Source: Bacteroidia bacterium
GTDB lineage: Bacteria > Bacteroidota > Bacteroidia > NS11-12g > UBA9320
Reading direction: 5' to 3'
NCBI GenBank assembly: GCA_017857855.1
Contig: JAFMCI010000012.1
Location: forward strand, 1 to 54,658
DNA: 54,658 nt
Shown here: one piece after another, positions 1 through 3,595 of the stretch
Layout of the letters: each line of letters starts with the position of its first letter
Position numbering within the stretch: the stretch's first letter is position 1
Notes under the pieces: model-generated
Told to the model about the DNA's origin: nothing
Database searches by the model: none
The model's input: only the letters and a program-made list of their open reading frames with translations
Made by a program: the position numbers and the translations under genes

Positions 1-5
1 AAACT

Positions 6-89
6 GTCTACAACCACTGAACTTGATACGAAGCACAAAGCTTCATTTAACCACTTAACCGCCAATTTATTGTAGGTGCTGTTACCTGC
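6..89 (-). other. attC-like recombination site A (cassette boundary)
   Basis: On the minus strand the site begins with GCAGGTAAC (89-81) and ends with GTTGTAGAC (14-6), 84 bp in all. Its centre holds a 5-bp hairpin, GAAGC/GCTTC (30-44). The outer arms pair only partly. The GCAGGTAAC end is complementary to the start of the esterase unit at 1365-1378, as expected for the R'' box of a cassette's own attC site. GTTGTAGAC would start the next cassette, beyond the left edge. Assignment is by structure, not by a model search. Confidence 0.55.
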
Positions 90-109
90 TGGCGTTCTGC
101 CTGTCGTCA

Positions 110-1300
110 TTATTCCTTTATGAATTTTTGAGTTTGTTTTATTTGTCCTTGTGTAATTGTTATCATGTAAATACCGTTTGGCAAGTTAGAAATGTCAATG
201 ACGTTAAGATTTTGTGTTTTGATTAATACTTGTCCGATTAGGTTACTAACTGAAACTTCGCTTTTGTCAGTTTGTGAAATACTTAAATACAATTCTGTTC
301 TTGCTGGATTTGGATATATTTTAATTGTTGGTCGAATTGTTTGTTCTTCTGCACCAACAGTTATATTGCATAATGTGTGTGCATTAAAAAAGTTCCAAAG
401 TTCTACACTTGCTTGTATGTCTTCATTTGTCTCCCCTGCAACAACTTCATACAAAGGTATTTCAACTCCTGGCCAAGTATGTCCACCACCATTAATTCTG
501 TAGAACTTTACATCTGAATTGCACGAACAATTTGTAAAATTAAATAAGGTTACTGTTGAATTGTCTGTTAGATCTATGTCGGGAAGATTTATTGGTGGAT
601 TAGTTTGAATACAGTTGTTATTTATTTTCCAAAAATCAACTAAAGTATCTGCATTAATAATTTGATTTACTAACCCACCAGAACCATTTGCAACGCCACC
701 GTTGAAAGGGACGAATGGGTCAGCTGTTCCAATAACAAACATCATTGGTATTGGTCTTTGAGGATTGCAGGATGAATATAAGCTTGTGTCCATAATACTA
801 CCCAAACTAGCCATAGCAGCAAATCGCTGGTTTTGTTCACACGCAAACCTTTGTGTCATATAACCACCATTTGAAAAGCCACAGATGTAAATTTTATTAA
901 TGTCAATATTATAATTTGCCAATAATGTGTCAAGAAGCTTGTTTATAAAACCTAAGTCATCTATTCCTGCAATATCTGCTGAAGTTCCCCTGCCGTCTGC
1001 CCAAGAATAGCCACCTGATGAGACTATGCCATAACCTTCAGGATAAACTGCTAAAAAGCCATTGGTATTTGATACTGAATTTAGATTTGTAAAGTTTTGA
1101 GAATTTTGCATTGTTCCACCATTGCCGTGTAACATAAGAACCGCAGAAACAGGAGTTGTATTTGTAAATCCTGTTGGTGTATGAACAGTAAATTTTCTTT
1201 GATAAGTTTGATGAACAATGCTGTCTATAATATTAGCTTGTCCAAAAGACAAATTACATAAAAAAGTAGTAAGTGCTATAAGTATGTATTTTTTCATCAT
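110..1300 (-). CDS. Secreted PHB-depolymerase-like esterase with T9SS sorting domain
   Basis: This 396-residue protein has a signal peptide (about 1-20), an alpha/beta-hydrolase domain and a C-terminal type IX sorting domain (about 325-396, IYPNPA motif, GIY near the end). The nucleophile elbow GFSNGG puts Ser at 143; the likely acid is Asp194 (GTADP) and the base His274 (GGGHTWPG). HGNGG near 58-62 is the probable oxyanion region. This layout matches the secreted LpqC/PHB-depolymerase esterases, so it probably cleaves an ester in a polymer or plant-derived substrate; the substrate cannot be told. The start could be the second Met. The gene is the only one between attC-like sites A and B and has no obvious promoter of its own, as usual for a cassette gene. 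Confidence 0.85.
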   Translation of the reverse strand: MMKKYILIALTTFLCNLSFGQANIIDSIVHQTYQRKFTVHTPTGFTNTTPVSAVLMLHGNGGTMQNSQNFTNLNSVSNTNGFLAVYPEGYGIVSSGGYSWADGRGTSADIAGIDDLGFINKLLDTLLANYNIDINKIYICGFSNGGYMTQRFACEQNQRFAAMASLGSIMDTSLYSSCNPQRPIPMMFVIGTADPFVPFNGGVANGSGGLVNQIINADTLVDFWKINNNCIQTNPPINLPDIDLTDNSTVTLFNFTNCSCNSDVKFYRINGGGHTWPGVEIPLYEVVAGETNEDIQASVELWNFFNAHTLCNITVGAEEQTIRPTIKIYPNPARTELYLSISQTDKSEVSVSNLIGQVLIKTQNLNVIDISNLPNGIYMITITQGQIKQTQKFIKE

Positions 1301-1369
1301 TTCTTTTTAAATTATTAGACGCTCAAAACCGACAAAAGTTTAATAGTTGTATTTTCGTCCAATACGCTT

Positions 1370-1502
1370 GCAGGTAACGTTAAGTGTATGATTTCGTAAG
1401 GGATTGCGAACTTCAAACCTATCAAGTTGCCACCCAAATTTAAAGCGGGTGATACAGCTCGAAAACCTATGGAACCCTTATGAATTATACACATTGTTGG
1501 GC
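1370..1502 (-). other. attC-like recombination site B (cassette boundary)
   Basis: This 133-bp imperfect palindrome lies between the membrane-protein gene and the esterase gene. On the minus strand it starts GCCCAAC (1502-1496, fits RYYYAAC) and ends GTTACCTGC (1378-1370). The arms at 1475-1495 and 1379-1402 are inverted copies with 16 of 19 identical aligned positions from GTGTAT to TAAGGG, including a single-base bulge like the extrahelical bases of integron attC sites. The two end boxes do not pair with each other; each pairs with the far end of its own neighbouring unit. Confidence 0.65.
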
Positions 1503-1509
1503 ATAGTTA

Positions 1510-2286
1510 TTATTTGAGTTCCTCCAAAATCTTGTTTATTTCCATTCCAATTCTGTCAATCTCCGATACATATTTGTCTGTCTCCTCGGATATGGCTTTT
1601 ACAATAATCTCGTTATGCTGTATTCTTAAATCACAATATTTCAGTAGTTTCTTATTCTGTTCAAGTAACTCTACTGGTAAATTCTCAATCGAGTTTAGTC
1701 TATTTACTATTTCCTTATTTTCCTTCCATAAAACAATCCCTTTGCTGAATTCCTTAATCAAGTATTGAGGTTCAGCCATGTTAATCACATTAAATACTGC
1801 AAGCGATTGGTTTTCATTTTCAACGAATTTTGCAACCTCAGTATCGTAAGTTGTTGCATCGAAGTCAGGTTTAGATAAATCCCCTGCAATAAAAGCTGTC
1901 CCTGCAATCATTGCAAGTAAAATCACCATGAAAATCGCTCCAATTCCAGTCGCTTTCCATCCGCTATAAAATTCACCACCTGATTCTTTATGTTCCTTTA
2001 ACCATTGACCTTGAATTTTCTCAACTATCAAATAAATTATCCCTGTATAAATTGCAGGTATCACTGCATTGGGAATTTTATCAATTATATGTTCAGGTAT
2101 CGAAAATATTCCTGCAAATATCAAAAGAGTCGAAATGATTCCAATTATAAAGGCTTTCTTACCTTTCTCAGATTGGTCATGTGATTCATAGTTTTTTTTA
2201 ACTAAATATCCCGCTGCTGCAGGTCCTCCAAAATAAGTTGCAATCGCAATCGCTCTTTGAGAAAATAGTTTTTTTGTTTCTTCCAT
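1510..2286 (-). CDS. Hypothetical multi-pass membrane protein, cassette gene
   Basis: This 258-residue protein has no family I recognise. It has hydrophobic segments near residues 14-28, 46-62, 73-90 and 110-135, followed by a charged, helical, probably coiled C-terminal half (about 150-258) rich in Glu, Lys and Ile. That suggests a membrane anchor with a soluble tail. It is the sole gene between attC-like sites B and C. Its stop lies only a few bases from the GTTGGGC box of site B, the tight packing normal for a cassette. Cassette membrane proteins of unknown function are common in integrons. Confidence 0.75.
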   Translation of the reverse strand: MEETKKLFSQRAIAIATYFGGPAAAGYLVKKNYESHDQSEKGKKAFIIGIISTLLIFAGIFSIPEHIIDKIPNAVIPAIYTGIIYLIVEKIQGQWLKEHKESGGEFYSGWKATGIGAIFMVILLAMIAGTAFIAGDLSKPDFDATTYDTEVAKFVENENQSLAVFNVINMAEPQYLIKEFSKGIVLWKENKEIVNRLNSIENLPVELLEQNKKLLKYCDLRIQHNEIIVKAISEETDKYVSEIDRIGMEINKILEELK

Positions 2287-2329
2287 CTAATTATCTGTTT
2301 ATGATTGTAGTATCGTTCGTTCTAATTAT

Positions 2330-2459
2330 GCCCAACATTAGTATATGCGAACTATAAACAACGAGTGTCGCATATTTTCCATATGTACGCCACTAAATAT
2401 TTTCTCACTTTCGGTAAATATTTGTTGTTTATCCATTCTACATTTACTCATCGTTGTAT
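2330..2459 (-). other. attC-like site C (possible attI of the platform)
   Basis: This 130-bp imperfect palindrome lies just downstream of the integrase stop. On the minus strand it runs from ATACAAC (2459-2453) to GTTGGGC (2336-2330). Inner arms ATAAACAAC (2354-2362) and GTTGTTTAT (2424-2432) pair perfectly, and the outer arms pair with small bulges. The GTTGGGCATAATTA end (2336-2323) is complementary, 13 of 14, to the other end of the membrane-protein unit (1496-1509). No partner of the ATACAAC end is visible upstream of the integrase, so this may be the attI-equivalent, where the array joins the integrase. Confidence 0.6.
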
Positions 2460-2476
2460 ATACCAAAAATAGTATT

Positions 2477-3595
2477 TTATAACAAATCCAAAGGACTCAT
2501 TACGGTTTTATTGTTAATGTTTATCACACGGGTATATATTTCTGTGGTTTTACTACTACTATGGCCTAATGCATTCTGGATCACACGCATACTAACCCCA
2601 GATTGCATTAGATGAGTCGCAAACGAATGCCTTAAAGTATGCGGCGTACTCCAAGGGTTAGCGTTTGTGTCTTTTACCGCCTTTCTAAAAATATTTTGAA
2701 CGCTTTTAGCCGTATATTGTCCTCCGTCCTGTCCTTCGAATAACCAGTATGAGGGCTTATGCAGTCTGTAATACTCTCTTAAAATTCGAAGCAACATCGG
2801 ACTCAGAACAGTGTGTCTATCTCTTTTCCCCTTAGAGTCCTTTATAAAAATAAATCCTTCGTCGCTGCGTATATCCGTTACCCGCAGCCGAATCAGTTCG
2901 CCTAGCCGCAATCCCCCGCTATATATGGTGTACAGTATAGCCTTGTGTTTTATGTTTTGTGGCGAGTTTATAATGGCTTTCACTTCTTCCTTGCTTAGTA
3001 CGTTAGGCAAGTCTTTACTCTTTTTGGGTCGTGTTATATTATAATATTCTCGCGGCTTGCCTAGTGTATGCTCGTAATAGCTCTTTATGGCATTTATAAC
3101 ACTGTTTTGCTTTTGCTCACTTATTTTATATTTACTTACCAAGGTATACACAAAGCCTTCGATCTGATCTTTGGTAACATTATGCAAATCAGCATTTTCA
3201 AAGTAAGAGAAAAACTGCACCAAGTTTCCTTGGTAGGTATTTATAGTATTTGTGCTTAGCCCTTTTAGCACCAGTTTTTGGTGGTTTTTATCTAACTCAA
3301 CTTGACTCTTTTCTGATAGCAATACCTTGGGTTGGGCGGGCGCGGTATTTGTGTCCTTGACTACCAATTTGCCTATAAAAAGCTTTCTCATCTCTTCCTT
3401 ATTTTCCTCCGTATTCACAATACTCCATAGCTTTTGAGTGGGGTGGTAAAATGAGGTGTTGAGCTGCTTAAAGGCTTCTCGTTCTAGTTTCATCTGATAA
3501 GGTATGTGTATCTTTATTCGCTTGCTTTTGGGCAGTGGTTTGTAGATGGTAATCTTTTGATTTATAGAGGATTGAGATGTTTTAGCTGCTTTCAT
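2477..3595 (-). CDS. Tyrosine recombinase, IntI/XerD-like integrase
   Basis: This 372-residue recombinase has the full catalytic set: Arg230 (GGLRLGE), Lys255 or Lys257 in the beta hairpin, His319-x-x-Arg322 (HTLRH), His345 (LGH) and nucleophile Tyr354. A SAM-like core-binding domain covers about 95-180. Residues 10-75 are an extra N-terminal region common in Bacteroidota recombinases. The end (TTEIYT followed by SPLDLL) and TPHTLRHSFAT are strikingly like integron integrases, but the IntI-specific insertion before the HxxR box is not seen. It is transcribed in the same direction as the two cassette-like genes after it, the arrangement of 'reverse' integrons. It probably moves the adjacent units. 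A XerD-like element recombinase is the alternative. Confidence 0.85.
   Translation of the reverse strand: MKAAKTSQSSINQKITIYKPLPKSKRIKIHIPYQMKLEREAFKQLNTSFYHPTQKLWSIVNTEENKEEMRKLFIGKLVVKDTNTAPAQPKVLLSEKSQVELDKNHQKLVLKGLSTNTINTYQGNLVQFFSYFENADLHNVTKDQIEGFVYTLVSKYKISEQKQNSVINAIKSYYEHTLGKPREYYNITRPKKSKDLPNVLSKEEVKAIINSPQNIKHKAILYTIYSGGLRLGELIRLRVTDIRSDEGFIFIKDSKGKRDRHTVLSPMLLRILREYYRLHKPSYWLFEGQDGGQYTAKSVQNIFRKAVKDTNANPWSTPHTLRHSFATHLMQSGVSMRVIQNALGHSSSKTTEIYTRVININNKTVMSPLDLL

Follow-up and report, generated by a model that had tools for sequence, protein, structure and literature searches.

What kind of element leaves behind a tyrosine recombinase gene a row of units whose two ends are complementary to each other and not to those of the neighbour? 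The question is raised by one end of the window analysed here (the whole 54,658-nt stretch of contig JAFMCI010000012.1, from a Bacteroidia bacterium), where a first-pass annotation had noticed two such units and had attributed them to excision as a circle and insertion at G^TT. Our analysis makes it likely that we see here the proximal part of an array of integron-type cassettes, in which a recombinase without the additional domain of canonical integron integrases (IntI) joins bottom-strand attC sites to attI at GTT; no recombination was observed, and all the evidence is comparative. The anatomy itself is established: read along the minus strand, the recombinase gene is followed by 140 nt, unit 1, a 117-nt hairpin, unit 2 and 80 nt of a second hairpin, with the following features:

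2477..3595, minus strand: tyrosine recombinase gene (372 aa, PF00589), transcribed toward the array and carrying a ~95-aa N-terminal extension
2337..2476, minus strand: attI-like region from the recombinase stop to the first GTT (140 nt), conserved up to GTT in relatives
2343..2375, minus strand: 8-bp inverted repeat ATATGCGA/TCGCATAT with a 17-nt loop, within attI and 6 nt before the first GTT
1378..2335, minus strand: unit (cassette) 1, boundaries inferred, assuming cleavage at G^TT
2323..2336, minus strand: R' of unit 1, GTTGGGCATAATTA, the unit start
1510..2286, minus strand: ORF of unit 1, a 258-aa membrane-type protein of unknown family (weak DUF4199 match, E 0.006)
1496..1509, minus strand: R'' of unit 1, the matching end TAACTATGCCCAAC (minus strand), complement of GTTGGGCATAGTTA, pairing with its own R' at 13 of 14 positions
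1379..1495, minus strand: hairpin portion, 117 nt (L'', variable loop and L'), of the attC-like site separating units 1 and 2, with the L stem GTGTATAATTCATAAGGG / GTGTATGATTTCGTAAGGG
1365..1378, minus strand: R' of unit 2, GTTACCTGCAAGCG, the unit start
110..1300, minus strand: ORF of unit 2, a 396-aa PHB-depolymerase-like esterase with a T9SS type A sorting tail
81..94, minus strand: R'' of unit 2, complement of GTTACCTGCTGGCG, pairing with its own R' at 12 of 14 positions
1..80, minus strand: 5' part of a second attC-like hairpin, of the type AGCACCTA..., truncated by the contig end

Both end pairings claimed by the first-pass annotation held, with coordinates and letters exact (1378-1365 against 81-94 for the esterase unit, 2336-2323 against 1496-1509 for the membrane-protein unit), as did the claim that the pairs differ between units, which extends to unit-specific end sequences in dozens of relatives' arrays. 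In both window units the pairing is broken at position 11, with an A at the start and a C at the end, and resumes for 3-5 nt. The chance of finding an own-end partner within 2 kb of a GTT in the rest of the window is 0.0011 at a score of at least 8.5 (unit 1) and 0.0066 at a score of at least 7 (unit 2), and both matches lie at the places expected of them, right after the recombinase and 117 nt apart. A scatter of the same end motifs over unrelated sites would have refuted the reading, and neither motif recurs exactly in the rest of the window. When the own ends of unit 1 are joined, the bottom-strand hairpin improves from -13.7 kcal/mol in the array to -23.2 kcal/mol (folding with DNA parameters only); unit 2 was excluded from this comparison, its hairpin being truncated by the contig end. 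Excision as a circle and insertion at this site are supported in that all testable evidence fits, but the exact cut G^TT held only in part: the boundary is placed at GTT and, because GTT is conserved, the data cannot separate G^TT from GTT^.

Own-end pairing is shown here and supports the earlier reading, but it is a textbook property of integrons and not new in itself. The self-pairing of integron cassette ends usually covers 9-11 nt, the conserved bases of attC being limited to AAC and GTT (PMC2727003), and in our control canonical IntI arrays from the same phylum it covers 8-17 nt. The mean fold gain on joining own ends is likewise the same in the two sets, units beside domain-less recombinases and canonical control units (-7.2 vs -7.1 kcal/mol), a gain expected in both because the units were selected by own-end pairing; only the window pair was not chosen by an own-end search, so that the better folding of the circle is independent evidence for the window alone. 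What the first-pass annotation did not contain, and what goes beyond the textbook, is the combination of a recombinase that is non-canonical as an IntI, lacking the additional domain, with sites from which the 5'-arm extrahelical bases are missing.

The missing domain is shown at several levels. The window recombinase matches the IntI profile TIGR02249 with 187 bits, under the cut-off of 265, and the match is split at ~181-239, as it is in all relatives tried, which likewise stay under the cut-off; an alignment to IntI4 (2a3v) skips from residue 188 to 247. The KGKxDR and HxLRH motifs are separated by 76 residues, where canonical IntI has 118 and XerC/XerD ~80, and the structure model has a single helix there. 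The additional domain (I2 helix) is absent throughout the recombinase family, as it is from archaeal XerA and XerC/XerD, whose catalytic fold is alike; the best fold match of the model is indeed archaeal XerA (4a8e, Z 23.0), with IntI4 following (Z 18.7). Residues R230, K255, H319, R322, H345 and Y354, which from knowledge of the family we take to be the catalytic ones, are invariant. In a maximum-likelihood tree, IntI form one clade (100/100) and XerC/XerD a separate one (100/99), and the domain-less recombinases fall on the IntI side, together with recombinases found beside IS91-family transposases (L202-L204), which share the SPL-type C-terminus, are shorter than IntI and, unlike the window recombinase, are paired with an IS91 transposase. 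The inner order of this tree is weakly to modestly supported, its branches are long, the domain-less recombinases are paraphyletic in it, and archaeal XerA was not included. No IntI over the TIGR02249 cut-off was found in the window's genome or in 19 relatives, so no canonical enzyme acting in trans is visible. The window recombinase thus falls outside the branch of the XerC/XerD dimer-resolution enzymes, and the genome carries its own XerC/XerD-like genes (L003 and L004).

Some observations on the recombinases stand beside these results. Residues 1-95 form a conserved N-terminal α/β extension beyond the IntI/Xer core, without a Pfam match. Short C-terminal recombinase fragments occur on other contigs of the same genome (G000:C95:35-154) and of a sister genome (G001:C62:9398-9580), and could conceivably be second, broken copies. 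At locus L073, the array's own recombinase is domain-less and frameshifted, and a second tyrosine recombinase lies in reverse orientation in the array region (L073:14349-15134, minus strand); the latter fell near canonical IntI in preliminary trees and, not being the array's own, was left out of the final tree.

The sites differ from canonical ones as clearly as the enzyme. Sites of the window type are bounded by AAC and GTT and fold on one strand into a two-armed hairpin. In canonical attC sites, the 5' arm of the L stem bears 2-3 extrahelical bases, and these are shown to be nearly absent here: we counted 3 extra bases on this arm in 23 sites, against 64 in 29 canonical sites, each of which has at least one (any extra base, Fisher p 2e-8), and 0 in 15 sites of an independent set. 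A single extra base does occur in some sites, mostly on the 3' arm (7/23 and 4/15), the window's own site included. A.C mismatches occur in both arms and correspond to bottom-strand G.T wobbles; their asymmetry is equally plain: mismatches giving a bottom-strand wobble outnumber those giving a top-strand one by 41:8, and by 22:4 in the independent set. Because A.C mismatches become G.T wobbles on the bottom strand, it is this strand that folds better, and it is the more stable in 31 of 35 sites and in 15 of 19 of the independent set, against 16 of 32 canonical sites. That the wobbles act as a strand signal is an inference. The R' core fits GTTRRRY in only 7 of 85 cases, and canonical controls of the same phylum, although closer, do so in only 21 of 57. 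The sites are of two types, between which MAFFT misaligns the 3' arm by one base.

To what extent the pattern recurs was followed by de novo chaining 3' of the relatives' recombinases, with a site model that consisted only of GTT/AAC and own-end complementarity. Many Bacteroidia, among them Aequorivita, Algoriphagus, Dyadobacter and Saprospiraceae, carry chained arrays with up to several units, and in dozens of these arrays the own-end rule holds with unit-specific sequences, R'' pairing with the start of its own unit. Junction lengths, for which 20-170 nt were allowed, cluster at 117-121 nt (27/83, against 8/101 in Markov nulls). Units start with GTT, seven bases and a conserved A at position 11 opposite C, followed by 3-5 paired bases; the A is present in 85 of 98 units (17 of 57 canonical ones) and the A.C combination in 68 of 98 (2 of 57), and the recurrence of the latter constitutes independent support because the search penalised that mismatch. 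The independent set comprised 20 regions beside recombinases from a class-wide survey, about 15 of which gave the recombinase end; arrays were seen in seven of these, with 10 of 19 junction lengths again at 117-121 nt and, over all chained units, A at position 11 in 26 of 33 and A.C in 22 of 33. Among the chained units, several with a score of about 5 and without A at position 11 are spurious, and conclusions rest on units with at least 9 exact end matches; moreover, sites in one array share descent, so that the counts overstate independence. The cargo (YhcG nuclease, GmrSD, MerT, WG-repeat, transporter) is typical of cassettes.

Of the 247 Bacteroidia genomes sampled, 132 contain domain-less relatives of the recombinase, a count that includes distant members and does not imply an array for each genome; about half of the recombinase-carrying genomes with testable sequence show such arrays. 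In a phylum-wide sample of 296 genomes, 84 carry canonical IntI above the cut-off; of those listed, G133 alone comes from the class of the window.

The window array itself is cut short, the contig breaking inside an attC (positions 1-80), and many relatives' contigs likewise stop shortly after the recombinase; because contigs end in these places, such arrays are probably undercounted in draft genomes. A search of the draft genome for the remainder of the array, with the second-site DNA and the 3'-arm pattern, gave no match elsewhere, and no DNA homologue covering the window cassettes was found among the relatives, the sole match measuring 112 bp. The sorting tail of the unit 2 esterase (110-1300) is a secretion signal typical of Bacteroidota, and the cargo therefore looks adapted to this phylum.

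Movement of the units can be judged where related attI regions are followed by different cassettes. In one genome, loci L107 and L109 agree completely over the 148 nt of attI that lead up to GTT, beyond which their first cassettes differ; in Aequorivita, the three loci L061, L063 and L019 likewise have a common attI as far as GTT and differ thereafter, as do the window and L006, whose attI-like sequence is conserved up to the same point. The genome with L107 and L109 (G008), which is nearly complete, has both recombinase copies in full. The unit at L109:3245-3894 recurs in another family (G075, L178:1501-2152) with 91% identity over 652 nt, and its boundaries are exact: the homology starts precisely at GTT and stops just past AAC, with attI-like sequence adjoining and unrelated flanks. 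R' and R'' of this unit are nearly identical in the two genomes and the hairpin after AAC is different, whereas the whole attC is part of a canonical cassette. The unshared hairpin is not predicted by simple cassette transfer and remains unexplained; possibly the ORF with its R ends and the hairpin evolve or are exchanged separately. Only this one cassette could be traced between genomes, and that array units move as discrete cassettes is inferred from sequence alone. The attI inverted-repeat score averages 7.0 in 46 domain-less loci, against 4.7 in shuffled sequences (4.9 against 5.1 for canonical attI). Domain-less attI regions often contain an inverted repeat that stops ~5 nt short of GTT and looks like an attC L arm without R''; the phylum's canonical attI lack it.

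How far, then, does the system resemble those already known? Canonical IntI integrons (class 1, Vibrio and other chromosomal ones, including our controls L209, L210, L216 and L218) have in common with it an attI, cassettes in head-to-tail order, site ends of AAC and GTT, unit-specific R'/R'' self-pairing, two-armed hairpins with a variable loop and GTT boundaries. They differ in the additional domain and the extrahelical bases, in lacking the conserved A at position 11 and the strand bias of the wobbles, and in that the canonical integrase is usually divergent from the array, whereas the window recombinase is transcribed toward it.

An ordinary chromosomal integron, with standard R'/R'' pairing, a diverged IntI and an unchanged mechanism, would nonetheless account for much of this: most cassettes are known to pair their own ends over 9-11 nt (PMC2727003), the phylum's canonical arrays pair over 8-17 nt with the same fold gain, and in the chromosomal integrons of Treponema the integrase, which is treated there as an intI gene, is likewise transcribed toward attI, in cassette direction (PMC3607928). 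We consider this explanation very unlikely, as the additional domain is absent throughout the recombinase family and the 5'-arm extrahelical bases are missing, yet present in all 29 testable canonical control sites. Unlikely, but still standing, is an Xer-like recombination of double-stranded DNA at duplex L'-R' sites whose two arms measure ~11 bp, with full exchange of the second strand, in which the hairpins form but are not the substrate. The closest fold is that of XerA, there is no I2 helix to block second-strand exchange, and the conserved A lies 11 nt out on the R arm, which corresponds to the arm length of Xer sites; these arms measure 11 nt. Against it, such a mechanism needs no R''-L'', no unit-specific complementarity of own ends and no wobble bias toward one strand.

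Two further explanations are all but excluded. Each unit could be a transposon with its own terminal inverted repeats, as the 14-nt imperfect inverted ends might suggest, but the units contain no transposase, each has ends of its own, beyond the repeats there is always a hairpin of ~118 nt, and the units follow the recombinase head to tail. Alternatively, the hairpins could be RNA elements (terminators or regulators) of the cassette transcripts, with the end pairing incidental, and a strong stem does follow each ORF; yet the sense RNA would hold the A.C mismatches, G.U pairs being possible only on the opposite strand, an Rfam search returned no match, and the end pairing spans the whole ORF and is unit-specific.

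We thus return to the integron-type reading with a domain-less recombinase, whose mechanism is proposed and not observed. The array would consist of the recombinase, attI and head-to-tail units, each an ORF with a hairpin site. In a free circular cassette, R' and R'' would be contiguous with the hairpin and form with it a two-armed bottom-strand stem (R and L arms), the wobble of the R arm lying 11 from the crossover; the recombinase would bind the folded stem and join it to attI at GTT. Integration would part R' from R'', leaving each array end complementary to the far end of its own unit, and the weaker site that remains in the array may make a cassette more likely to be retained than excised. 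A single-stranded substrate is inferred from the own-end complementarity and the strand-biased wobbles, and catalysis by the domain-less recombinase is likewise an inference. How second-strand exchange would be avoided without I2 is left open by the single-strand model. Enzyme and site differ together, as they would in a working alternative.

According to the literature, the I2 helix docks the extrahelical bases, is required for the capture of cassettes and confers single-strand recombination; it is described as occurring in no protein but IntI, with no evolutionary intermediates known (PMC7790495). In a survey of integrons based on IntI profiles, Bacteroidetes had only integrases without cassettes, one complete integron being reported later, from Salinibacter (PMC9024848), and we found no description of integrons such as the present ones in the open-access literature searched, most subscription papers and preprints lying outside its coverage. 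A bolder reading, for and against which we see comparable grounds, is that these arrays represent a widespread integron branch of Bacteroidia, whose integrase either never gained or has lost I2 and in which the bottom-strand attC is recognised by the G.T wobbles of its two arms and not by extrahelical bases; neither I2 nor the extrahelical bases would then be essential, and the enzymes could represent the missing intermediate between Xer-like recombinases and IntI. If true, this would make both features dispensable for single-strand cassette recombination. An I2-less recombinase beside many arrays, whose sites lack the bases that I2 docks, renders the origin of integrons and their minimal requirements directly testable. 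In Bacteroidia, a group regarded as almost free of integrons, a stripped-down integrase seems to be common, which suggests a large uncounted reservoir of gene capture in these dominant environmental and gut bacteria.
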